Shown here piece by piece: positions 11,391 to 35,592 of a DNA stretch of 36,187 nucleotides. This stretch comes from Acidobacteriaceae bacterium. GTDB taxonomy: Bacteria; Acidobacteriota; Terriglobia; Terriglobales; Acidobacteriaceae. The stretch is from the NCBI GenBank assembly GCA_903970395.1, contig CAJCIM010000046.1:1-36187 (forward strand), in the 5' to 3' direction. The notes beneath the pieces were generated by a model, which saw only the letters and a list, made by a program, of their open reading frames with translations, made no database searches and was not told the origin of the DNA. The translations under genes and the position numbers were made by a program. Within the stretch, counting starts at the first letter, position 1; the number at the start of each line of letters is the position of its first letter.

Positions 11391-12512
11391 ATGCGCTACG
11401 GTTTTTGGCTACCCGTCTTCGGCGGCTGGCTTCGCAACATCGACAACGAGCAGATGCCCGCCACGTGGGAGTACGTGAGCGGCCTCTGCCAGCAGGCTGA
11501 GTCTCTCGGCTACGACCTTACTCTCATCGCGGAACTGAACCTCAACGACATCAAGGGCGTCGAGGCCGACTCGCTCGATGCGTGGACGACCACCGCCGCG
11601 CTCGCTGCCGTGACGAAGAAGCTTGAGCTGATGATTGCCGTGCGTCCGACATTTCACAACCCGGCGCTGCTCGCGAAGCAGGCTGCGTGTCTCGACCGCA
11701 TCAGCGGTGGCCGGCTCACGCTCAACGTCGTCAGCAGCTGGTGGCGCGATGAGGCCGTCAAGTACGGCATCCCCTTCGACGAGCACGATGAGCGCTACGC
11801 CCGCACGGAAGAGTGGCTCGACGTGCTGCTGAGCTGCTGGAAGCAGCAGCATACCTCGCATAGCGGCCGCTTCTACAACATCGACGACAACATCCTCTCG
11901 CCCAAGCCGATGCCCCAACGTACCTACTCCGGTATCGAAAAACTGGGTGCCCCATCTTCGCCTGCGGCCTCATCGCAGGCTAAGGTGGGTTTGCAGGGTT
12001 TCTCCGGCCTGCCAACGCTCTACGCCGGTGGTGAGAGCGAGACCGCGAAGAACCTCATCGCCTCCAAATGCGACGCCTACCTGATGCACGGCGACGATCC
12101 GAAGACCATCGCTGCCAAGGTTGATGATATGAAGGCCCGCCGCGCAAAGCATCCGCATCTGGCGCCGCTGATCTTCGGCGTCACTGGCTACTGCATCGTG
12201 CGCGACAGCGAAGCCGAAGCGAACAGGGAAGTGGACCGCATCACTGCGCAGCCTGATCCTTCACAATCGCCCGCAGGCTACGCGAACTTTCAGCAGTGGG
12301 TCACCGGCTCGCAACTGGAAAAGAAGCTGAGCATCCGCGACTACTCCGTCTCCAATCGCGGCCTGCACAGCGGCATGATCGGTACACCCGAGCAGGTGAA
12401 ACAGCGCCTCGCGGACTTCGAAGGCGCAGGCTGCTCTCTGGTGCTGATGCAGTCTTCACCGCAGCACATCGAGATGGAGCGCATCTCTGCCCAGGTGATG
12501 CAGCGGAGCTAG
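11391..12512 (+). CDS. LLM-class flavin-dependent monooxygenase with an in-frame repeat insertion
   Basis: A luciferase-like (LLM) flavin monooxygenase of 373 residues. The start MRYGFWLPVFGGWLRN, the segment RPTFHNPALLAKQAACLDRISGGRLTLNVVSSWW and the YAGGES motif place it near the SfnG/SsuD alkanesulfonate and dimethylsulfone monooxygenases, which need reduced FMN from a reductase. The ATG at 11391 follows AAGGA; the open frame before it begins with TTG. Residues about 184-200 (LGAPSSP to AKVG) are encoded by a 45-bp palindromic repeat. They fall in the loop between the PKPMPQ segment and PTLYAGGES, where homologues go straight from one to the other. About 15-25 residues are thus extra, but no frame is broken and the enzyme may still work. 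Confidence 0.9.
   Translation: MRYGFWLPVFGGWLRNIDNEQMPATWEYVSGLCQQAESLGYDLTLIAELNLNDIKGVEADSLDAWTTTAALAAVTKKLELMIAVRPTFHNPALLAKQAACLDRISGGRLTLNVVSSWWRDEAVKYGIPFDEHDERYARTEEWLDVLLSCWKQQHTSHSGRFYNIDDNILSPKPMPQRTYSGIEKLGAPSSPAASSQAKVGLQGFSGLPTLYAGGESETAKNLIASKCDAYLMHGDDPKTIAAKVDDMKARRAKHPHLAPLIFGVTGYCIVRDSEAEANREVDRITAQPDPSQSPAGYANFQQWVTGSQLEKKLSIRDYSVSNRGLHSGMIGTPEQVKQRLADFEGAGCSLVLMQSSPQHIEMERISAQVMQRS
11945..11989 (+). repeat. 45-bp palindromic repeat inserted in frame in the monooxygenase gene
   Basis: The repeat starts with GGGTGCCCC and ends with AAGGTGGG. The outer stem pairs CCCATCTT with AAGGTGGG with one T-G wobble. The inner stem pairs GCCTGCG with CGCAGGC perfectly around a loop holding CTCATCG. 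The same 45 bp with five changes recurs in glmS. It is read as GAPSSPAASSQAKVG and contains no stop in this frame, though a TAA lies in another frame. Confidence 0.9.
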
Positions 12513-12538
12513 CTCCGGGTTCCGCCCGGGACCCGGAG
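12513..12538 (+). terminator. hairpin directly after the monooxygenase stop
   Basis: CTCCGGGT and ACCCGGAG pair perfectly over 8 bp around a 10-nt loop, starting with the first base after the stop codon. There is no T run, so termination strength is uncertain; it may instead protect the 3' end of the mRNA. Confidence 0.45.
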
Positions 12539-12602
12539 AGGTAATACCACACTATTTGTTGCGGGTTGCTACTTATCCCTTCAACAGCGTACCCTTCTGC
12601 GC

Positions 12603-14081
12603 ATGATGAACCGCCGTCACTTCCTGCTCTCCGCCGCTGCCACGGCGACGCTGCCGCAGCTGCGTTCGCTTGCACAGGCACCCGCCACGCTCACCCTGCA
12701 CACCGATAAGCGCGGCCCCATGGTGCCTGCCAACTTCATCGGCCTCTCGTACGAGACGCAACAACTCTCCGACCCCAACTACTTCACCGCGGCAAACACC
12801 GGCCTCGTCGCGCGGCTCCGCGAGCTCGCTCCGCACGGCGTCCTTCGCCTCGGCGGCAACACCTCCGACTACGGCTTCTGGAAGCCCACACCCACCTCAA
12901 CGCCGCCGCCACGCGCCAAGCGTGAGTACAAGCTCGGTGACCCGCCGCCCGATCTCTACTACGGCGTCACGCCCGAGGCTGTACGCAACCTGCGCGCCTT
13001 CCTCGACGCTACCGGCTGGACGTGCCTCTACGGCATCAACCTCGGCACCAACACGCCGCAGCTTGCAGCGGATGAGGCTGCCTTCGTCGCGAAGACACTC
13101 GGCAACAAGCTGGAGTACTTCCAGGTCGGCAACGAAGCGGATCGCTTCGCCTCGACCATCCGCGACCCCAAGCTCACCGGCCATCCTTGGAACGCCGATC
13201 CCTTCCTCGACGAGTGGCTCACCTTTGCCAAGGCGATCTTGGCGCGCGTGCCTGATGCAAAGTTCGGCCTTCCCGACGTCGCGAGCAACGCCGAGTGGAT
13301 CTCCGCCGTGGGCGACCGCCTGCAGAACAACCCCATCCGCGAGCACGTCGCGTCCGTCTCGCACCACTACTACATAGGCGGTCCGCCCTCGAACCCGGAG
13401 ATGACCATCGAGCACATCCTCAAGTCCGATCCGCGTGTTCCCAGCGATGCCGCCCTCGTGCGCGCATCAGCCGACAAGCTGCACACGCACTACCGCATGA
13501 CCGAGGGAAACACCTGCTATCGCGGCGGCAAGCCCGGCGTGTCGGATGTCTTCGCCGCAGCACTGTGGTCGGCGGACTATCTGCTGCTGCTCGCCTCTCT
13601 GGGCTACGCGGGTGTGAACCTGCACGGCGGCGACGGACAGATGGTCGCCAACTCGCTCGGCGGCAAACTTCCCGGCGATGACATCGTTCTTGCCGAGCAC
13701 GGCGATCCCACCACGCATCCGCACCCGTACTACACGCCCGTCGCGCACATCGGCGACAGGTACTTGCTGGAGCCGGTCGCCTTCGGCATGCGCTTCGCCG
13801 GCCACTTCGCTGGCGCCAGCATCGTCCCGGTCGACTTCAACCCCGGCAGCGTGAACGCTACAGCCTACGCCGCGAAGCGGGCCGACGGCACGACTATCGT
13901 CGCGGTCATCAACAAGGACCTCTCGCAGGACCTCGCGCTCAACCTGCCGGGCTTCCACGCGGAGTACGCTCTCACCGCGCCAGCAGCAAGCTCGCGACAG
14001 GCGTCCCTCGCAGAGACCACGCAACCATCGCTTACCCACACTCTCCCGCATACGTCGGCGGCTATCTTCCGTAGCCGATAG
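12603..14081 (+). CDS. exported GH79-family glycoside hydrolase (beta-glucuronidase/heparanase-like)
   Basis: A 492-residue protein with the hallmarks of GH79. The first residues (NRRHFLLSAAATATLP, then SLAQA) look like a Tat signal, so it should be exported folded. The catalytic TIM barrel carries FQVGNEAD, with the likely acid/base at Glu178, and RMTEGNT, with the likely nucleophile at Glu301. The C-terminal beta-domain (VDFNPGSVNATAYAAKRADGTTIVAVINKD) fits the GH79 C domain. Characterised relatives, including one from Acidobacterium capsulatum, remove glucuronic acid from glycans. Two ATG codons lie in tandem at 12603 and 12606; no clear ribosome site separates them. The gene converges on the TonB-dependent receptor and could work with it on the same polysaccharide, which is inference. 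Confidence 0.88.
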   Translation: MMNRRHFLLSAAATATLPQLRSLAQAPATLTLHTDKRGPMVPANFIGLSYETQQLSDPNYFTAANTGLVARLRELAPHGVLRLGGNTSDYGFWKPTPTSTPPPRAKREYKLGDPPPDLYYGVTPEAVRNLRAFLDATGWTCLYGINLGTNTPQLAADEAAFVAKTLGNKLEYFQVGNEADRFASTIRDPKLTGHPWNADPFLDEWLTFAKAILARVPDAKFGLPDVASNAEWISAVGDRLQNNPIREHVASVSHHYYIGGPPSNPEMTIEHILKSDPRVPSDAALVRASADKLHTHYRMTEGNTCYRGGKPGVSDVFAAALWSADYLLLLASLGYAGVNLHGGDGQMVANSLGGKLPGDDIVLAEHGDPTTHPHPYYTPVAHIGDRYLLEPVAFGMRFAGHFAGASIVPVDFNPGSVNATAYAAKRADGTTIVAVINKDLSQDLALNLPGFHAEYALTAPAASSRQASLAETTQPSLTHTLPHTSAAIFRSR

Positions 14082-14094
14082 TCATCGTTACACG

Positions 14095-14140
14095 CACCAA
14101 CAGCAAGGGCGCCGATCTCTCGGCGCCCTTGCTGTTGGTG
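14095..14140. terminator. perfect 21-bp bidirectional terminator hairpin
   Basis: Arms 14095-14115 and 14120-14140 are exact reverse complements over 21 bp around a 4-nt loop. They sit in the 73 bp between the convergent GH79 and receptor genes, so the hairpin can end transcripts from both sides. It is unusually long and GC-rich, and T runs are short. Confidence 0.85.
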
Positions 14141-14154
14141 GTTGATGGATGGTT

Positions 14155-17100
14155 TTAGAAGACGATCCGCGCACCCAGCTGCACCTGGCGAGGCTGGCTG
14201 TTCGCCGCTACCGCCGTGATGTAGCCGAAGTTGCTGGCCGTCGCGCTCGACACGTTCGGTGTTGAGAACACCGGGTGGTTCAGAGTGTTGAAGGTCTCAA
14301 AGCGCAGCTGCAGGTAGGTCGAATCGGTGAAGTGGAAGTTCTTCAGGATCGACGCATCCAGGTTGTTGAAGCCATCGCCGCGAACCCACGAGAGCGTCTG
14401 CGGCAGTGTGCGGTAGTGGAAGGTGTACTGTCCGTTGATGAACTGCGAGCCGTCGCAAGTGCCGGTGGTTGGGCAGGCCTTGACGTTGCCTGTGACAAAG
14501 TCCGCAACGCTTAGAGCAGGCGTGCCAGTTTGGCTGCTAGATGAGGGGACAGGCGATGAGTTGCGTGTCTGGTTCGAGATCTGCCGCAACGTTACACCAG
14601 GCTGTAGCGGGATGTCGGCGGAGAACTCCACCGGCGGTCCGCTCTGGTACTGGTAGATGCTGTTGATCACGAAGCCACCCAGCAACTCATCCATCAGGCG
14701 GCTACCGCCGAAGCTGAACTGTTTGCCCTTGCCGAAGGGCAGCTCGTACGTGCCGCCCACGGTGAAGTGGTGAGTATGGTCGAACGGAGAGATGCGGCGC
14801 GTGGTCGTCGTGTCCTCGTCGTTCAGCAGGGTGTCCGCCTCGATCAGCTTGCTGAAGCTGTAGTTGGCTGTCAGCGTCAGACCATGCTTCGCGCGCTGTT
14901 CAATGTGAACAATCGCGCTATTGAAGTAGGACTGACCGATGGTCTGGTTCTGTTCGGTCACCGCCGCCGCTCCAAACTGGGGGAAGGGAACGACCAGGTT
15001 GCCGAGCGTCGTCGTGCTGGCGTTCAGTGAGGCGTTGCCCGGCAACTGACCAGCGAACGGATTCGCTACGGACGCACCATAGTCGAGCCCCAGGCCAATG
15101 TTGGCGTAGGGGTTCGTGCTTAGGTACTGCAGCTTCGTGGCGTTCAGGTTTTGCGTGGCAAGCGGCAGGTGCAGCGCGTGGTTACCAACGAACATTGCCT
15201 CGAACAGTGTGCTGCTGGTGAGCGAGCGCTGTATGCCGAGGTTCCAGCGCTCTGAGTACGGATCGTGCTCGTACGGTGCAAGGAAGCTGATGGCCTGGCC
15301 GAGGAAGGTGCTCGCACCCAGTGACGAACCCACGGCTTGTTGATAACCGCTTGGGAATGGGTTGCTTAGGTTGTTAGCTGGCGTAAGGAAGTTGCTGGCG
15401 GTTGCGGCTACATACGGCGTGGTTGCGCTGAAGCCTTCTTGATTGTTGAGCGCGTTGGAGGAGTAGGTGCCTTGCGCGTTCAGGCTGGCGAGCGTCTCCG
15501 ACTGAACGAAGATGCCGAAGCCGCCGCGCACCACCGTCTTCGGATCAACCGAAAGCGAGAAGCCGATGCGAGGGCTGACGAAGCCACTGTTGTTTGAGTA
15601 GGCTGCGCCCCCAGAGCTCGGGAAGGTCAGGCCGCCAAGTGTGTTGATGTTTGCCACCGTTGCGGTTACGCCACCGTTCGTCTTGGTCTGCGACGTAAAG
15701 GCAGCAGCCGCAGCGGCTGACGCCGAGTTTGTCGCCGTCGTGTTGAAGCCGTTTACCGTGCGGCCGAACTTCTCGCGATACGGTGTGTCGACGTCATAAC
15801 GAATGCCGAGGTTCAAGGTCAGGCGATCGTTCACGCGCCAGTCATCCTGCAGGAAGGTGCCGATGTAGTAGCTGTGGTAGTCGGCGCGGGTGTTGTTATC
15901 GGTCTGACCTGCAGTAGGCAGACCCAGGTAGAAGCTGGCGAGATCTCCGCCGAAGGTCGGCGACGAACCGGAGGTGCCCACGAACTGGTTGCCGAAGTTG
16001 AAAGCGCCTTCCGTGTTGCCGAAGTTCTTCACGCTCAGACGGTACTGACGTCCGTCAAAGCCGATCTTCAGCGTTTGACGACCGATGACCTTCACCATGT
16101 CCGTGAAGATCTGGTAGCTCGTCGTGGGGTCGAACGACGACGTGTTGTCACCCAGCGAAGCATATGACGTTGTATTGGTGCCGACGCTGGCCACCGAGGT
16201 CGAGGTGGTGAATTGTATAGCTGGAAGCTGCTTCTCCTGAGAGGCGGCATCGATTGTGGCAGGCAGGCCCACGCTGGCGGCGCTGTACTGCTCCGCCGGA
16301 GTACCATGCACCTCGTTGAAGAACGTCCAGTTCACACGCGTATCGAAGATCGTCGAAGAGTTCAGTGTGAATACGTTGTCGAGCGTCAGCCCGAAGTTCT
16401 CACGCAGCAGCGTTGTGCCGGTTGCTCCATTGCCGAAGAAGTCGTTCTTCAATTGCGTGCGGTAGTTGTGACGGAAGTCGCCAAAGATGTGGTCGCGAGC
16501 GCTCACGTTGTAGTCGAGGCGCCCAAACTCGTTGTTGTAGTTGTCGATGCTTGGCGCACCGCTGATGTAATTGTTCTGGCCAGTGGCGGCGACGCCGGTG
16601 GTGTTGTTGGGCAATGGATAGAGCTTCAGGTACGCCGCCGCAACCGGATTGATTGCAGCGACGGAGGTGAGCTGGTTGTTGAGAATCGCCTGACGGACCA
16701 CCTGGCCCGAGCTGTTCAGGCTGGCGGTGAAGGGGTTGTAGATCTGGTTGGGGTCGGCGTGCACCTTGCTGTTGCTGCTGTCGGGATTACACATGGCGGT
16801 AGCGGTCGCAGGGTTGTTCGCGAAGCCGTTTGGGCAGCCTGCAGCGAGAGTCTGCGAGAAGTCGCCGTTGCGCTCGGCCTGCGTAGGCACTGTGAGAGCC
16901 TGTGTGTTCGGCGTGGAGTCCTTCAGACGCTCGAAGGCGAAGAAGAAGAAAAGCTTGTCCTTGCCGTTATAAAGCTTCGGCAGAATCACCGGGCCGCCGA
17001 CCGTAAGGCCGTACTGGTTGAAGTGCGCCACAGGCGTGGGAATAACAGGGTTCGCACGGTCGTTGAAATAAAGGTCCGAGTCCAGCGCGGAGACCTGCGA

Positions 17101-17898
17101 GAACTCATACACGCTGCCGTGGAAGGCGTTCGTTCCGCCCTTGGTGATCTGGTTGATGACGCCACCGATCGTGTGTCCAAAGCTAGCGTCCGTATCGAAC
17201 GGACGAATCGAGACCTCCTGCACCGAATCCTGCGTCGGTGCATAGGCCAGCGCGCCCAACAGCGTCAGGTCGGGCGAGCCATCGAGCAGAACCTCGCTCA
17301 CCTGGTTCGGTGTGCCACCCATCGACCACGAGTTGCCGGCGTTGTTGTCGAACGGGTGCACGATCTGTGGCGCAGCCGTGGTGATCACGCCCTCTGAAAG
17401 CTCCGTCAGTGTCGTCGGGGTGCGGCCATTCAGTGGCAGGTTCGCGACCGACTCTGTCGTAATGACCTGTCCGACCGATGCGTTTGCCTGGTCGACAAGC
17501 GAAGCCTCTGCATTGACCGTCACGGTCTGGTCCGTTTCTCCCACCTGCAGCGTCATGTTGACGATAGGGTGGGCCTGGCTCTCCAGAGTAATGCCGTTGC
17601 GCACAGTCTGCTCGAATCCGCTGGCCGTCACAGAGATCGAATACGTGCCCGGCAGCAGGAACGGCACCACATACTGGCCTGCGCTGTCGCTGGTGGTCTT
17701 GTTGACGGTGCCGGTACTGGTCTCGCGCACCGTTACGGTCGCTCCGGGCACCACAGCGCCCGTGGGATCCGCAACTGCGCCGCTAATGGTTCCGCGGAAC
17801 TCCTGTGCGCTGGCTGTGGGTGGTATTAGACCGATTGAGAGAAAGAGTGCCAGGGTCAACGTACACGTTGCCCAAGCCGATCGTAGAGAGATTCGCAT
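14155..17898 (-). CDS. Oar-like TonB-dependent receptor with carboxypeptidase-regulatory domain
   Basis: A 1247-residue outer-membrane protein. The signal peptide ends in PPTASAQ. Residues about 33-120 are a carboxypeptidase-regulatory-like (CarboxypepD_reg) domain (GTISGAVADPTGAVVPGATVTV, GQYVVPFLLPGTYSI). A plug domain (LPLNGRTPTTLTELSEGVI, VLLDGSPD) follows, then a long barrel that closes with the terminal aromatic signature QVQLGARIVF. This domain order and length are typical of the large Oar-like receptor families expanded in Acidobacteriota. They take up or bind oligosaccharides, peptides or siderophores; the ligand here is unknown. AGGAG precedes the ATG. The gene is single and faces the GH79 gene. 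The barrel is rich in Asn, Ser and Thr, as usual for surface loops. Confidence 0.93.
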   Translation of the reverse strand: MRISLRSAWATCTLTLALFLSIGLIPPTASAQEFRGTISGAVADPTGAVVPGATVTVRETSTGTVNKTTSDSAGQYVVPFLLPGTYSISVTASGFEQTVRNGITLESQAHPIVNMTLQVGETDQTVTVNAEASLVDQANASVGQVITTESVANLPLNGRTPTTLTELSEGVITTAAPQIVHPFDNNAGNSWSMGGTPNQVSEVLLDGSPDLTLLGALAYAPTQDSVQEVSIRPFDTDASFGHTIGGVINQITKGGTNAFHGSVYEFSQVSALDSDLYFNDRANPVIPTPVAHFNQYGLTVGGPVILPKLYNGKDKLFFFFAFERLKDSTPNTQALTVPTQAERNGDFSQTLAAGCPNGFANNPATATAMCNPDSSNSKVHADPNQIYNPFTASLNSSGQVVRQAILNNQLTSVAAINPVAAAYLKLYPLPNNTTGVAATGQNNYISGAPSIDNYNNEFGRLDYNVSARDHIFGDFRHNYRTQLKNDFFGNGATGTTLLRENFGLTLDNVFTLNSSTIFDTRVNWTFFNEVHGTPAEQYSAASVGLPATIDAASQEKQLPAIQFTTSTSVASVGTNTTSYASLGDNTSSFDPTTSYQIFTDMVKVIGRQTLKIGFDGRQYRLSVKNFGNTEGAFNFGNQFVGTSGSSPTFGGDLASFYLGLPTAGQTDNNTRADYHSYYIGTFLQDDWRVNDRLTLNLGIRYDVDTPYREKFGRTVNGFNTTATNSASAAAAAAFTSQTKTNGGVTATVANINTLGGLTFPSSGGAAYSNNSGFVSPRIGFSLSVDPKTVVRGGFGIFVQSETLASLNAQGTYSSNALNNQEGFSATTPYVAATASNFLTPANNLSNPFPSGYQQAVGSSLGASTFLGQAISFLAPYEHDPYSERWNLGIQRSLTSSTLFEAMFVGNHALHLPLATQNLNATKLQYLSTNPYANIGLGLDYGASVANPFAGQLPGNASLNASTTTLGNLVVPFPQFGAAAVTEQNQTIGQSYFNSAIVHIEQRAKHGLTLTANYSFSKLIEADTLLNDEDTTTTRRISPFDHTHHFTVGGTYELPFGKGKQFSFGGSRLMDELLGGFVINSIYQYQSGPPVEFSADIPLQPGVTLRQISNQTRNSSPVPSSSSQTGTPALSVADFVTGNVKACPTTGTCDGSQFINGQYTFHYRTLPQTLSWVRGDGFNNLDASILKNFHFTDSTYLQLRFETFNTLNHPVFSTPNVSSATASNFGYITAVAANSQPRQVQLGARIVF

Positions 17899-18283
17899 CT
17901 CTGGCTGCTCCTGTTGTAGTACAAACCGGCGTGTCGTTCGACCGGGATGAGGGTTTAAGCGTGCAGCGGTTTATGCACCGGTTTACGGTGTCTCTTCGCT
18001 ACACTTGTCTGGAAGGCTTAGGCACGCAGTTTTCTGCGTTACGGCCCCTTCGGTCGCCGAAGTTGTTAAGAGTTCGGCACGGTTGGAGATTATCGTCTCC
18101 AAAGGCGACACTTGTCAAACAGAATTGCCTAGCTGTCTTACTGATATTCGCACTGTAATAGACGCCACTGCCGACAGAGGTGTTTATGAGACGGCCTCAT
18201 CTGGGAAAAGCTACGACCGCCCTGTCCGCCCTCTGTGAGATTCGCCACAGTCGTGCTCAAGATGTGCATCTACACTGTTCACT
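17899..18283. promoter_or_regulatory. divergent promoter region of the receptor and glmS
   Basis: About 385 bp between divergent genes must hold both promoters. I see TTGTCA near 18114 and small dyads (GGAGA...TCTCC near 18089-18105), but no convincing pair of promoter boxes. No glmS ribozyme could be recognised by eye. Confidence 0.4.
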
Positions 18284-20251
18284 ATGTGTGGAATCGTTGG
18301 TTACATTGGGCCTAAGGCCTGCGTCCCCGTCATTATGGAAGGCCTTGCCCGCCTGGAGTATCGCGGTTATGACTCCGCAGGCATCGCCGTCGCCGGTGGC
18401 GGCGAGCCTCTACAGCTGCGCCGCGCCCCCGGCAAGCTCCGCAACCTCGCCGAGATCCTCGCCAAAGACCCGGTGCACGGCACCTACGGCATCGGCCACA
18501 CACGCTGGGCCACGCACGGCCGCCCCACGGAAGAGAACGCGCACCCGCACCGCGACGGTACAGGCACACTCGTCGTCGTGCACAACGGCATCGTGGAGAA
18601 CTACCTCACGCTGAAGAACGCGCTCATCGCCAAGGGCCACAAGTTCTCCTCGGAGACCGACACCGAGATCATCGCGCACGTCATTCAGGACGAATTAGAA
18701 CTCGCCGCAGCATTGGGTGCCCCATCTTCGCCGATGGCCTCATCGTCGGCTAAGGTGGGTTCGACCACCGACTTCGACTCCGCCGAGGCCGTCGTTACCG
18801 CGCCAGCATCGCTGCCCCTCGAAGAAGCCGTGCGCCGCGCCGTCAAGCGCCTCACCGGAGCCTTCGCCATCGGCGTGCTCTCCGCCAACGAGCCCGACAA
18901 GATGGTCGCAGCTCGCATGGGACCGCCGATAGTCCTAGGTCTCGGCGAAGGCGAGTTCTTCCTCGCCTCCGACGTCCCCGGCATTCTCCACCACACCCGC
19001 AACATCTACTTCCTCAACGACCACGAGGTCGCCACCCTCACCACCTCTGGCGTCACGCTCACCGACTTCGACGGCAAGCCCAAAACCATGCAGCCGCAGC
19101 GCATCACCTGGGACCCCATCCAGGCCGAAAAAGCCGGCTACAAGCACTTCATGCTCAAAGAAATCAACGAGCAGCCGCGCGCCGTCCGCGACACCACGCT
19201 CGGCCGCGTCTCGCTCGACTCCGGCCGCGTCTTCCTGCCCGACATGAAGATCACGCCCGAAGAGTTCAAAGCCGCCACCGGCATCACCATCGCCGCCTGC
19301 GGCACCAGTTGGCACGCCGGGCTCGCCGGCAAGTTCATGATTGAGCGCCTCGCGCGCCTCCCCGTCGACGTCGACTACGCCAGCGAGTACCGCTACCGCG
19401 ACCCCATCCCAAACCCATCCGAGCTCGGCCTGCTCATCACCCAGTCCGGCGAAACCGCCGACACCATCGCCGCGCAGCACGAGCTTATCGCCAAAGGCTC
19501 CAAAACGCTCGCCATCTGCAACGTCGTCGGCTCCGCCGTCACCCGCCTCGCCGCCGGAGTCATCACCACCAACGCCGGCCCGGAGATCGGCGTCGCCAGC
19601 ACCAAAGCCTTTACAGCCCAGCTCACCGCGCTGTTCACACTGGCGCTGTATCTCGCGCAGGTGCGCGGCACCGTCACGTTTGAAACATCACTCTACCTCG
19701 TCGGCGAGCTCGCAAAAATCCCCGGCAAGATCGAAGAGATCCTCCGCACCGTCGACGACCAGTGCGCGGAGCTGGCCAAATCCTTCTCCACCGCACGCGA
19801 CTTCCTCTTCCTCGGCCGCGGCATCCACTACCCCATCGCGCTTGAAGGCGCCCTCAAGCTCAAGGAGATCTCCTACATCCACGCCGAAGGCTACCCCGCC
19901 GGCGAGATGAAGCACGGCCCCAACGCCCTCATCGACGAAACGCTCCCCGTCGTCTGCATCGCCACCCAGGACCCCAACGACCCCAGCTCCGTCCTCAAGT
20001 ACGAAAAAACCCTCTCCAACATCCAGGAAGTAACCGCCCGCTCCGGCCGCGTCATCGCCATCGCCATCGAAGGCGACACCCACATCGGGCAGCTGGTCGA
20101 GCACACCATCTACATCCCCCAGTCGCACGAACTCCTGCTGCCTATCCTGGAAGTCGTCCCGCTGCAACTGTTGGCGTATCACATTGCTGTAAGACGAGGC
20201 TGCGACGTCGACCAGCCGAGGAATCTGGCGAAGAGCGTGACGGTCGAATAG
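18284..20251 (+). CDS. glmS: glutamine-fructose-6-phosphate aminotransferase with an in-frame repeat insertion
   Basis: GlmS makes glucosamine-6-phosphate from fructose-6-phosphate and glutamine, the first step to cell-wall UDP-GlcNAc. The protein starts MCGIVGYIG with the catalytic Cys2 of the glutaminase domain. It contains HTRWATHG, the two sugar-isomerase domains ([29 protein letters not shown]) and the family C terminus LAKSVTVE. It has 655 residues, about 45 more than E. coli GlmS. Most of the excess lies between the segments [13 protein letters not shown] and [12 protein letters not shown] of the glutaminase domain. It includes residues 143-160, which come from the 45-bp repeat, plus a tail of low complexity. 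The site is a surface loop in known structures, so the essential enzyme is presumably active. Confidence 0.96.
18715..18759 (+). repeat. 45-bp palindromic repeat inserted in frame in glmS
   Basis: Identical to the copy in the monooxygenase gene except for five bases, all in the inner stem (GCCGATG with CGTCGGC, one T-G wobble). The read-out is [15 protein letters not shown], in the same frame as the other coding copy. Three consecutive pairs of the stem are changed on one or both sides while pairing is kept. Confidence 0.92.
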
Positions 20252-21302: not shown

Positions 21303-21647
21303 CGTCGCTAGGTGGCGAGTGGCTCACATCTGGGCGGGTGGGCAACCCATCTTGGGGTAGAGGGTACTCAAGGTTTACGACGTCCTCATGCGAACGGTCT
21401 GAAGGGATATCAATCCCCATGGAAGCTATCACTTCATCACGTTTAGCTGTTACCGCCCTCTTCCATACCTCGACAACGACTACGCCGATGCCATATTCAT
21501 GCCCTCGCTCCCGCGGCATGGGTAGGACACGGAAACCAAGTTCCACTCTGGAAATCTCGCGGGCCTCACGCCAAGAAAGTGGTTGTCGAGACTGGTCTAG
21601 ACAGGTTAGGCTCTTCGGAACACCCAAAGCGGCTTCGGAGATTGTCC
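21303..21647. other. spacer with a possible decayed repeat
   Basis: About 345 bp without a supported gene. A segment near 21326-21362 (GGCGGGTGGGCAACCCATC, then GGGG) resembles the left edge of the GGGTGCCCC repeat family, but no clean stem remains. Confidence 0.35.
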
Positions 21648-22729: not shown

Positions 22730-22747
22730 AGGGGGTGGCTGAATCAT

Positions 22748-22786
22748 GGGTGCCCCGCTAATGACAGTCTCATCGGCATGAGCGGG
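22748..22786 (+). repeat. GGGTGCCCC hairpin repeat, 39-bp form
   Basis: GGGTGCCCCG starts the element. CCCGCTAATG pairs with CATGAGCGGG except for one A-G mismatch, around a loop containing CTCATCG. A second 39-bp copy at 23797 matches it except for three positions, and both continue with AGCGATGC. It lies shortly after the stop of the small exported protein gene. Confidence 0.85.
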
Positions 22787-23583: not shown

Positions 23584-23796
23584 TCGCACATCCTCCAGAT
23601 TCCAAACCCCACAACTTTACTCTCTCCCCGAACCCTCATCCAAAACGCTCCATCTCGGGTAAGATGTGCCCTTACGCCCCATCCATATACTGCTACGACA
23701 CCACCGTGAACCCGCCCACCCTCTACGTCCTGCTCATCACCGACGGCGCTATCCTCTGACCAACGCCCAGCCGTATCTGGCGGGCGGCCCAACCAT

Positions 23797-23835
23797 GGGT
23801 GCCCCGTTCATGACAGTCTCATCGTCATGAGCGGG
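23797..23835 (+). repeat. GGGTGCCCC hairpin repeat, 39-bp form
   Basis: CCCGTTCATGA pairs with TCATGAGCGGG over 11 bp with one T-G wobble; the loop is CAGTCTCATCG. GGCGGGCGGCCCA lies about 20 bp upstream, as in other copies. A 31-residue open frame without similarity (23664-23759) ends just before that left edge, much like the tail stub beside the other copy. Confidence 0.87.
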
Positions 23836-24759: not shown

Positions 24760-24954
24760 CTATACTTAACTCAGGAGACGCTCCAGGCACTTCACTCTCC
24801 ACTACTGTCTACCCACTACTGTCTGTCCCCTATCCCCTTTATTTGCAAAATCATACCCACAACCGCATTAGAATCATCACTTACCCCCGGGATACCCCGG
24901 TAAGTGGCTGATTCCATTCAAGCCGTCCGCGAAAAAAGGGAGGGGGGAGGGGTA
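24760..24954 (+). repeat. composite repeat, copy A (about 195 bp)
   Basis: Shares with copies B and C these blocks in order: CTATACTTAA, a variable CT-rich part, TATCCCCTTT, TTTGCAA, ATCATACCC, CAACC, a long hairpin (24871-24914, arms GAATCATCACTTACC and GGTAAGTGGCTGATTC with a small mismatch), ATTCCATTCAA, and a GGGAGGGG end. It is the most diverged copy. It lies in the 552-bp stretch 24603-25154 between TumE and the RAYT, where no gene is supported. Confidence 0.88.
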
Positions 24955-25067: not shown

Positions 25068-25107
25068 GGGTGCCCCATCCATACGCGGCTTTTGGCGGAT
25101 GGGTGGG
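25068..25107 (+). repeat. GGGTGCCCC repeat just upstream of the RAYT
   Basis: GGGTGCCCCATCC starts the element; CCCATCC (25074-25080) pairs with GGATGGG (25097-25103) and a second GTGGG follows. GGCGGGTGGCCCA lies about 35 bp upstream. It ends 47 bp before the RAYT start codon. The loop (GCGGCTTTTGGC) differs from that of the other copies. Confidence 0.8.
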
Positions 25108-25154: not shown

Positions 25155-25584
25155 ATGCCGAGCAATCTGAAGCGGTTTCAAACCGGAGGAAGCTACCACT
25201 TCATCACCTTCAGGTTGTTACCGGCGGCTCCCGTACCTCGACAGCGATTCTTCCCGCATCGTCTTCGAAGAAGAGCTCGATAAACTCCAGGTCAGGCACC
25301 AGTTCTATCTCTTCGGCTACGTGCTGATGCCGAACCACGTGCATCTTCTCCTCAGCGAACCGAAACGGCACACCCTCAGCGCCACGTTGAACGTCCTCAA
25401 GGCCGAAACCTCCAAGCATCTCAAGGGCGACCGCAAGCAATTCTGGCAGGTTCGCTACTACGACTTCAGCGTCCTCACCACCGGCAAGCAGCGAGAGAAG
25501 CTGCGCTACATCCATCGCAACCCCGTCGTGCGCGGCCTTGTCGAAAAGCCCGAGGACTGGCAGTGGAGCAGCTACCGTCACTAA
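25155..25584 (+). pseudogene. frameshifted REP-associated tyrosine transposase (RAYT, Y1_Tnp)
   Basis: The ATG at 25155 opens MPSNLKRFQTGGSYHFITF, the usual start of RAYTs. Near 25211-25213 the frame shifts by one: TTCAGGTTGTTACCGG has one extra G relative to the expected Phe-Ser-Cys-Tyr-Arg. The correct continuation lies in the next frame: YRRLPYLDSDSSRIVFEEEL, then LMPNHVHLLLSEPKRH with the HUH histidines. The C-terminal part LRYIHRNPVVRGLVEKPEDWQWSSYRH holds a candidate catalytic Tyr. The remainder runs intact to the stop at 25582. With the shift corrected it encodes about 142 residues, near full length. RAYTs cut and move short palindromic REP elements, and copies of two repeat families lie just upstream. 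One recent error or a slippage site could explain the shift. Confidence 0.85.
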
Positions 25585-25988
25585 CTGACTGGAGAAGTTG
25601 AGTGCGTGGAGATCGAATCTCACTGGACGTACACGCGGCGAGAACGAGCATCCGCATCAGCACCCCTGCCTCGACGTCAGCGCCTCCAGTCCCCGGAGCT
25701 GCTGCTCCGCATCGCCTCTCCCTGCCTGGCACTTCCCATTTTGGGATGACTCCCAGCATTACCATCTTCATTACACAGTCCCTCCACGCGAGCTCGGCAT
25801 CCTACCTTGCTAGAAATCCTTGTCGGGTGGAACGAGGTTGCCCTCTATAGACATTGCTCCGAAGTGCGGACAAGGGAAGAGGTGTATCCACGAATACTCC
25901 TTGCTAGCGGTTGTTTTTTGAACGACCTGCACCACTCCCAAAATCTGCCGAATACGAACTCGCCACACTGAGCAATTCGGAGACCCCC
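25585..25988. other. spacer downstream of the RAYT
   Basis: About 400 bp without a supported gene. A small hairpin (TCCCA and TGGGA near 25735-25747) is the only structure noticed. The end must hold the promoter of the acyltransferase gene. Confidence 0.35.
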
Positions 25989-27158: not shown

Positions 27159-27190
27159 TCGTCACAAGCCTGTCCAGCCCACCAATTCTG

Positions 27191-27229
27191 GACGCCCCAT
27201 TCATGCGCGTTCGTTGCACATGGGTGGGG
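27191..27229 (+). repeat. GGGTGCCCC-family hairpin, diverged copy
   Basis: GACGCCCCATTCATG begins the element. CCCATTCATG pairs with CATGGGTGGG over 10 bp with two T-G wobbles, around a loop with CGTTCGTT. It lies between the acyltransferase and the DUF4097-like gene. A 6-bp dyad (GTCCAG and CTGGAC) lies just before and overlaps its left edge. Confidence 0.7.
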
Positions 27230-30523: not shown

Positions 30524-30701
30524 CTATACTTAATTTAGGGGGTCAAAGAAGGCGAGCTCTACTCCCTCTGCCTCTCTATCCCCTTTTGTTTGCAATATCA
30601 TACCCGCAACCAGCACCGAATCAGCCACTTAACCCCGGGATACCCCCGTAAATGACTGATTCCATTCAAAACTCCCTCGAAATTGAGGAGGGGGGAGGGG
30701 T
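30524..30701 (+). repeat. composite repeat, copy B (about 178 bp), overlapping coaE
   Basis: Carries the same blocks as copies A and C: CTATACTTAA, GAGCTCTACTC, CTCTGCCTCTCTATCCCC, TTTGCAATATCATACCCGC, the hairpin 30618-30662 (arms GAATCAGCCACTT and AAATGACTGATTC), CATTCAAAACT and the GGGGGGAGGGGT end. It overlaps the end of coaE by 36 bp and provides that gene's stop. It is nearly identical to copy C in the left 120 bp. Confidence 0.92.
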
Positions 30702-31331
30702 ACCTGCCGTCAGCTCATGCCAGACGCTCTCCACCTGAGCTTCCAGCTCACCGAGCGATCCATCGTTGCGCACCACCAGGCACTCCGTTGCATGGCTCTC
30801 GGTGTCCTGCAGCGCCAGCCGCCTGCGCGCATCAGCCTCCAACGCCGTACGCTCCTCGGCCGACGGAATGCGCCCAGCCAGGACCCTCGCAACGAATCGC
30901 GAGATCTTTCGCGCCTCGGAAGCGACAACCAGAACAATCCGATCGAACCGCTGCGCAACAGTTTGTCCGTAAGTAGAGAAGATCAGAGCAGACTCAACGA
31001 CAACGATCTTGTCAGTCGCAGCAAATGCAGCAACCTGCTTCGCCTGCTCTGCAAGCACCGCTGGATGAACGATCGTGTTCAGCTCCGCAACGCGCGGCGA
31101 AGCTGGATCAAACGCCAGCTGCGCGAGCTTGCGACGATCCAGCGTTCCATCCGTAGCAACAACCTCGCTGCCGAACTGCGCAACGATCGCGTTGTAGATG
31201 CTTTCGCCAGGTTGCATCATCTCGCGCGCAGCTTCGTCGGACGAGAGCACAACAGCTCCGCGAGCCGCAAGCATCGCCGCAACGGTCGACTTGCCGCTCC
31301 CAAGATCGCCCGTAAGCCCAACGCGCAGCAT
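30666..31331 (-). CDS. coaE: dephospho-CoA kinase
   Basis: A 221-residue dephospho-CoA kinase, the last step of coenzyme A synthesis. The P-loop (GLTGDLGSGKST), the DEAAREMM region and HPAVLAEQ with the substrate-binding basic residues are present, as is the VVESALIFSTYGQ strand. The C terminus is peculiar: after VWHELTA the last residues GTPPPSSISREF, and the TGA stop, are encoded by the CCCCTCCCCC end of composite repeat B on the other strand. The original end therefore was replaced or extended by the insertion. The extra tail should not disturb the kinase core. The start is 5 bp after the folD stop. Confidence 0.93.
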   Translation of the reverse strand: MLRVGLTGDLGSGKSTVAAMLAARGAVVLSSDEAAREMMQPGESIYNAIVAQFGSEVVATDGTLDRRKLAQLAFDPASPRVAELNTIVHPAVLAEQAKQVAAFAATDKIVVVESALIFSTYGQTVAQRFDRIVLVVASEARKISRFVARVLAGRIPSAEERTALEADARRRLALQDTESHATECLVVRNDGSLGELEAQVESVWHELTAGTPPPSSISREF

Positions 31332-35398: not shown

Positions 35399-35592
35399 GG
35401 CACCCCTCCCCCTACCTTTGCGGCGGAGTAGTTTTGAATGGAATCAGTCACTTACGGGGGTATCCCGGGGTCAAGTGGCTGATTCGGTTTGGGTTGCGGG
35501 TATGATATTGCAAGTAAAGGGGATAGAGAGGCAGAGGAGTCGAGGAGAAGATGAGTAGAGCTTGCCTGCTTTGCCCCCTAAGTTAAGTATAG
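35399..35592 (-). repeat. composite repeat, copy C (about 190 bp), in inverse orientation
   Basis: Starts at the base after the stop of the single-pass protein gene with GGCACCCCTCCCCC. It then contains GAATCAGTCACTT (35441-35453) pairing with AAGTGGCTGATTC (35473-35485). GGGTATGATATTGCAA, AAAGGGGATAGAGAGGCAGAG, GTAGAGCTTGCC and TTAAGTATAG follow. As in copy B, the CCCCTCCCC end faces the 3' end of a gene. The stretch 35593-35761 beyond it holds nothing recognised. Confidence 0.92.

Follow-up and report, generated by a model that had tools for sequence, protein, structure and literature searches.

Palindromic repeats in or beside protein genes have been described in several forms, and the element analysed here, a 46-nt hairpin found twice in a 36,187-nt stretch of Acidobacteriaceae bacterium DNA (contig CAJCIM010000046.1 of assembly GCA_903970395.1; the whole stretch is called the window), shares features with each of them. 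The closest are the repetitive extragenic palindromic (REP) elements and their RAYT transposases. In the REPtrons outlined in the available text of PMC2817692 and PMC8266576, as here, a HuH/Y1 RAYT (NF047646) lies between two inverted REPs and the copies are many; here, in contrast, many copies are intragenic and in frame, and the tie to the strand given by GC skew is strong. Intragenic REPs have also been reported: the available part of PMC3733652 describes REPs wholly inside open reading frames (ORFs), including uvrA, DNA polymerase I and tRNA synthetases, and different REPs at about the same site in recB of two Xanthomonas species, with shorter homologues that lack the inserts. The intragenic REPs of that account belong to the GTAG and CGTC super-families; the present family resembles them in lying inside uvrA, polymerase and tRNA synthetase genes, but differs in its GGGTG head, in single elements held in one phase, in a location split by stem length and in a strand that follows GC skew.

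Within the phylum, the same excerpt describes repeat-flanked Y1 transposases (TIRYT genes) of the acidobacterium Koribacter versatilis. These and the class 3 TnpA-Y1 enzymes (PMC6006769) have the phylum, the transposase superfamily and repeats adjoining the genes in common with our case, but they are of the terminal-inverted-repeat type or atypical, they are set apart here by description only, and the available portions of both sources mention no protein insertion. The enterobacterial RU elements, as presented in the excerpt of PMC2759123, are likewise small mobile repeats that create new peptides in genes; they are units of 103–168 bp resembling miniature inverted-repeat transposable elements, not REPs.

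A sequence-only reading of the window had named the Rickettsia palindromic elements (RPEs) as analogues. That comparison stands for the in-frame insertion of a palindrome, but REP/RAYT is the closer mechanistic relative because the family is linked to a RAYT. The RPEs (RPE-1, RPE-4 and RPE-6), palindromes in frame in unrelated protein genes, are not known to have a mobiliser, whereas a candidate transposase is identified here. They are likened by description, not by sequence, and RPE-1 is longer (all three are named in the available text of PMC3733652). Intragenic REPs and RPEs are thus already known. In a search of open-access literature, none of the papers listed deals, judging by title or the start of the abstract, with repeats inside acidobacterial proteins or with REP orientation relative to GC skew. 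New are the split in location that goes with a single base pair of the stem, the preference for one phase in genes that are unrelated, the finding of several repeat families in loops of the same genes within a genus, and the skew rule.

Copies in the window and in the genome

Both window copies lie inside protein genes.

11391–12512, + strand: host gene 1, FMN-dependent luciferase-like monooxygenase (PF00296)
11944–11991, + strand: REP of the 46-nt class plus 2 nt, inside the monooxygenase gene; encodes LGAPSSPAASSQAKVG
18284–20251, + strand: host gene 2, glmS (glutamine-fructose-6-phosphate aminotransferase)
18714–18761, + strand: REP of the 46-nt class plus 2 nt, inside glmS; encodes a 16-residue peptide

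The hairpins themselves span 11944–11989 and 18714–18759. The two 45-bp copies pointed out by the sequence-only reading were found where it placed them, with five mismatched sites, and are also seen as a 48-nt repeat of 90% identity. Both are in frame, as that reading held: the monooxygenase copy gives GAPSSPAASSQAKVG and the glmS copy a near-identical 15-residue peptide. The best NCBIfam match of the monooxygenase is SfnG, with a score under the family cut-off; glmS, which we take to be an essential gene, encodes a protein whose nearest named relative is from 'Edaphobacter sp.' (80% identity, in a search that may omit very near records). Folding of the + strand gave −28.0 and −26.4 kcal/mol, values equalled by 1/200 and 2/200 shuffles, respectively; the − strand of the glmS copy folds unremarkably (29/200 shuffles as good). 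Two matches to the 16-nt arm with at most three mismatches were reached in 4/100 shuffles of the window, which is not decisive, so that the genome-wide count decides.

The genome of the window (G000) comprises 3.82 Mb in 214 contigs and is 94.7% complete. A strict pattern recovered 48 copies (reversed control, 0), and a covariance model based on 13 46-nt sequences gave 110 matches at E ≤ 1, of which the 101 at E < 0.01 were classified. By type, these divide into CATCTT copies (for the most part 46 or 44 nt long), CATTCATGAC copies (28, none of them classed as in-gene in G000) and 9 others. The stem of the 46-nt form is one base pair longer than that of the 44-nt form. Among 20 distinct in-gene 46-mers, 97.5% of stem cells are paired and 13 cells have changed on both sides, against 2.3 in shuffles.

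As in REPs generally, the element is an imperfect palindrome of 20–50 nt with many dispersed copies. The foot of the palindrome carries no GT(A/G)G or CGTC head; in 88/101 copies GGGTG stands before the palindrome (TGGGTG 54, CGGGTG 27, AGGGTG 4, GGGGTG 3), which places the family outside the two named REP super-families. Nor is its location strictly extragenic, 29/101 copies being classed as in-gene. Like RPEs, it is inserted in frame in unrelated protein genes that have empty orthologues. The strict pattern is present in 11/28 genomes of the genus, 50/397 sampled genomes of the order and 6/80 genera.

RAYT transposase

Five Y1_Tnp matches were found in G000. The intact RAYT (C160:7258–7725; 156 residues; NF047646 at 99.8 bits, cut-off 80) lies between inverted CATCTT REPs at C160:7174 (−) and 7741 (+). 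This cognate RAYT gene between two inverted copies marks the hairpin as the REP of a REP/RAYT system. RAYTs of 68–73% identity occur in G010, G021 and G025. Each of the four nearest RAYTs (68–100% identity) is accompanied, within 250 nt and on at least one side, by a REP-like match: G010 has an inverted pair around the gene, G025 a pair around it in the same orientation, and G021 a match on one side.

Spread of the REP by recombination or by another enzyme, with RAYT proximity incidental, was weighed as an alternative. It would account for G007, a relative that keeps 52 copies although its best RAYT match has only 28% identity, and for an unrelated repeat (SSRPERS, below) that also enters genes and also follows GC skew. 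The arrangement of REP, RAYT and inverted REP speaks for the transposase instead, as does the presence of strict REP copies in 4/4 genomes whose RAYT is 68% identical or more, versus 7/24 others of the genus (p = 0.016, with the threshold chosen after the fact and kinship uncorrected). We regard non-RAYT spread as unlikely.

The window holds a RAYT remnant among further hairpins.

22747–22786, + strand: diverged REP-like hairpin, intergenic, 89% identical to the hairpin at 23796
23796–23835, + strand: REP of the CATGAC subfamily, 40 nt, covariance model match, not classed as in-gene
25068–25107, + strand: REP of the CCATAC type, strict pattern match, just upstream of the RAYT remnant
25157–25602, + strand: RAYT (Y1_Tnp) remnant, frame broken near the 5′ end, with an internal stop
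27190–27228, + strand: weak REP-like hairpin

Of four intergenic relatives proposed by the sequence-only reading, those at 23796 (covariance model) and 25069 (strict pattern) were borne out; the one at 22747 is related to 23796 but was recovered by neither strict pattern nor covariance model, and the one at 27190, likewise recovered by neither, is a weak look-alike. A 26-nt match (88% to 25188–25213) at 21420–21460 may be a fragment of a second RAYT 5′ end. The window also carries a longer repeat, about 124 bp in size, whose copies are partly inverted and partly direct (30581–30704, 35399–35522 and 24830–24953) and which does not match the REP.

Strand rule

The strand that carries GGGTGCCCC is the C-rich strand of the flanks in 99/101 cases in G000 (p = 4e-27). 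Gene strand was considered as the explanation and rejected, since the rule still holds in 35/39 stretches that code on the opposite strand. In the single-contig relative G007, where blocks of skew near +0.25 and −0.25 make up a mosaic, 30/32 REPs near sampled stretches (of 52) agree, and in the test set of other genomes described below the agreement is 41/41. We read the rule as strand-specific insertion, as expected of HuH enzymes acting on single strands; the C-rich strand is assumed to be the lagging strand.

Stem length, location and reading phase

A copy was classed as in-gene when its 240-nt flanks had the same best frame on both sides, with an open span of at least 20 codons on each. 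The 29 in-gene copies comprise 25 of 46 nt, including one (C109:1609) accepted by a looser rule, one 88-nt compound match (C60:13425) and three of 44 nt. For the CATCTT type, in-gene copies make up 25/28 of the 46-mers versus 2/27 of the 44-mers (Fisher p = 3e-10). The remaining three CATCTT 46-mers, which lie outside genes, have diverged; four in-gene copies are letter-identical, one of them in-gene by the looser rule only.

A single phase (+2) is used by 24/25 in-gene 46-mers, giving nearly the same peptide, often followed by SQDA. The exception is an antisense reading, PTLADDKTVGEDAAP, in an AAA protein that is presumably HslU. Three phases are stop-free in 20/25 in-gene 46-mers, more than three in four and two in one. 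The 20-residue consensus of the used phase is 75% Gly, Ala, Pro, Ser or Thr and carries no net charge, and the other two stop-free phases carry +8 and −6; the used phase gives the mildest peptide among the stop-free ones. Read in that same phase, a 44-nt copy has a TAA inside the element. Sense and antisense copies number 24:1 in genes versus 47:19 outside (p = 0.01), and strand preference may account for part of the in-gene sense excess. Of the 72 copies outside genes, six have coding-like flanks in the same strand and frame with no open span; where copies outside genes have coding-like flanks, the upstream frame mostly stops a few codons before the element (exceptions include C209:778 and C26:42539).

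In G007, where 30 of the 52 matches were examined, the parsed CATCTT 46-mers are in genes in 7/7 cases, all in the same phase, and 2/18 44-mers meet the rule. A CATTCATGAC-type 46-mer (L170) meets it weakly, in another phase; L165 was missed by the pattern yet lies in the Lhr gene by orthologue alignment, and L163 was mis-parsed. The prediction of the same partition and phase was stated beforehand and tested on 21 copies from the 46-nt class plus 20 from the 44-nt class, none dropped. Of the genomes covered, G025, G016, G021 and G015 had been searched earlier, and two of the 21 copies (in G025 GlmS and in G015) had been glimpsed. The 46-nt class was in genes in 9/21 cases, all nine in the predicted phase, and the 44-nt class in 0/20 (p = 0.0013). 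Contrary to the prediction, the 46-mers of G157, from another genus, were in genes in 0/10 cases; the remaining genomes gave 9/11. The codon model was that of G000 and its sensitivity may be lower in G157. The prediction held in part. Length alone as what sends 46-mers into genes was rejected on the G157 count.

Host proteins

The 26 in-gene copies of the 46-nt class, the compound one included, are spread over about 22 genes, assigned by Pfam, with gene names that are in part putative.

Among the hosts: TrmFO-like GidA family; QueA; HisS; RimO/MiaB-like radical SAM enzyme
Two sites each: Lhr-type helicase; ribonucleotide reductase; beta-lactamase/NamZ protein; UvrA
DNA polymerases: DNA polymerase I (PolA); DinB-like polymerase
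Others: TrpE; acetolactate synthase-like thiamine pyrophosphate (TPP) enzyme; M20 amidohydrolase; met-zincin; alginate-lyase-family protein
Remaining: cytochrome/TPR protein; PMT_2 protein; Hsp70; AAA protein; start of a TGS-domain protein
In the window: GlmS; luciferase-like monooxygenase

Other repeat-like peptides (NPYSLIPNPS, GIREQGLGIRK and ALKGSGLSP) were seen within host proteins L096, L021, L020 and L104.

A second repeat, SSRPERS (GTCATCTCGACCG...GAGACCTG), was matched at 14 loci of G000 and 25 of G007. Of the 39 loci, 30 (L369–L398) were examined: 17 are in genes, all sense, 14 in one phase and three in another, with in-frame copies encoding VSSRPERSxVERPAS, and orientation follows the same strand rule as the REP in 28/30. 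Because about 22 genes are hosts and a second family does likewise, tolerance of in-frame insertion is not peculiar to glmS.

Loops in relatives

In a GlmS alignment of 30 loci, its own included, the peptide is found in the genome of the window, in G007 (L037) and in G016 (L047, as GAPSSPAASSPARVG), and the later test set added GlmS of G025 (L450). In a further alignment, the one used for the AlphaFold model below, it is absent from all 26 other GlmS sequences (26 of 80 loci); its presence in most GlmS proteins, which would have spoken against the sequence-only reading, is thus not seen among those aligned. Among 14 monooxygenase loci from 12 genomes, the peptide occurs in the genome of the window and in G015 (L067). 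Orthologues were searched for 22 of the 26 host fragments in four genomes. They were found for 16/22 hosts in G024 (peptide in 0/16), 18/22 in G002 (0/18), 21/22 in G015 (no clear copy; two doubtful, C168 and C8) and 22/22 in G007 (six with the peptide in common; C8 doubtful). Host C109:1609 aligned poorly in all relatives searched. In-frame invasion of genes by a palindromic repeat, as the sequence-only reading proposed, is supported because many copies lie in unrelated genes and the sites are empty in relatives; the earlier observation is confirmed and was understated.

Some of the same loops hold unrelated repeat peptides in other genomes. In G007 these are SSRPERSEVERPAS-like in TrmFO, Lhr, PolA and RimO, ARHSEWSAAKSKNPEG in the TPP enzyme and ALKGTGFSPSGG in QueA, and in DinB a SSRPERSEVERPAS-like peptide adjoins the REP peptide. 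In other species, the GlmS loop (L039, L056) and the monooxygenase loop (L073, L077) contain SSRPERS-like or VILSGARSAQSKEPDE-like peptides. The GlmS loop of G003 (L051) contains a short internal tandem repeat, LDLQAELDLQAELERQAELD, a further way of loop filling.

Structural comparison places the insertions in loops. Residues 142–178 of the window GlmS align to about two residues of the solved homologue 4amv, and residues 179–210 of the monooxygenase to about three residues of 3rao. An AlphaFold model of GlmS (27 sequences; mean predicted local distance difference test score, pLDDT, 82.4) falls below 50 at residues 147–174, which lie between two helices and hold most of the peptide, and also at 278–285, 435–437, 528–544 and 644–655.

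Across the genus, the loops of GlmS and of the monooxygenase are hypervariable, which might suggest that the in-gene copies are low-complexity loops of ancestral origin that resemble one another through convergence or common descent. Such loops would not explain why the DNA, beyond the peptide, is letter-identical in unrelated genes, why stems are paired with changes on both sides, or why none of the other genera aligned has the peptide. The explanation is rejected on DNA identity, and we give it hardly any credence.

The peptide could instead be an adaptive, domesticated linker, the 46-nt lineage spreading because it is useful (for solubility, flexibility or assembly) and not merely tolerated. 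The one phase and strand of 24/25 copies would fit this, as would the identity of four in-gene copies while the CATCTT 46-mers outside genes diverged. Since, however, the sites are empty in relatives, some holding unrelated repeats there, no other stop-free phase would give as mild a peptide as the one used, so that tolerance suffices, and all ten G157 46-mers lie outside genes, we consider adaptation quite improbable.

Proposed history of the repeat

Given the observed copies, phases, hosts, empty sites, RAYT between inverted REPs and strand rule, we think it likely that a RAYT-mobilised REP inserts on one strand and that its copies are then sorted by selection. The REP would be, or have been, mobilised by its cognate HuH/Y1 RAYT, landing on just one of the two strands, probably in single-stranded form at replication forks, both in genes and between them. 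Selection would then keep frame-neutral, mild copies in loops. The 44-nt form would bring a frameshift or a TAA stop and hence survive almost only outside genes; the 46-nt form can keep the frame and would survive in loops, in the phase that gives a neutral, linker-like peptide rich in Gly, Ala, Pro, Ser and Thr, with the host enzymes presumably keeping their activity.

Several points weigh against this account, besides the G157 copies and the lack of a close RAYT in G007. Gene calls rest on a codon score trained on only ten window genes, and the in-gene rule needs an open span, so that genes broken by a copy go uncounted. Three 44-nt copies meet that rule (in a threonine ammonia-lyase-like PALP-family enzyme, glutamate synthase and an ORF with no Pfam match), and 15/101 copies are flanked on one strand by coding-like sequence whose frames differ. 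Copies outside genes also lie in the sense of the upstream gene (47/66). The monooxygenase copy is common to G015 but missing in the closer G007, by loss or a second insertion. Insertion points and lengths were clean at 0/14 sites viewed at the nucleotide level; divergence of the loops makes the precise points of insertion and any target duplications unreadable there.

More tentatively, and with rather less confidence, a protein-coding REP lineage can be imagined, in which an extra stem base pair made the element 46 nt long and frame-neutral. It would sit mainly in genes in this genus and spread between them as a disordered linker that comes ready for use; unrelated families would do likewise, loops of core enzymes being landing pads for strand-specific mobile hairpins.

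The loops, filled, empty or differently filled in sister species, are in effect insertion experiments that nature has made in many core enzymes. They also carry a warning, as such loops in annotated proteins are mobile DNA and not conserved features. With intragenic palindromes tied to a concrete transposase family, the movement of protein-coding palindromes can be put to the test. The strand rule points to replication forks as the place of insertion, and each element would then mark the strand history of its site and past inversions.

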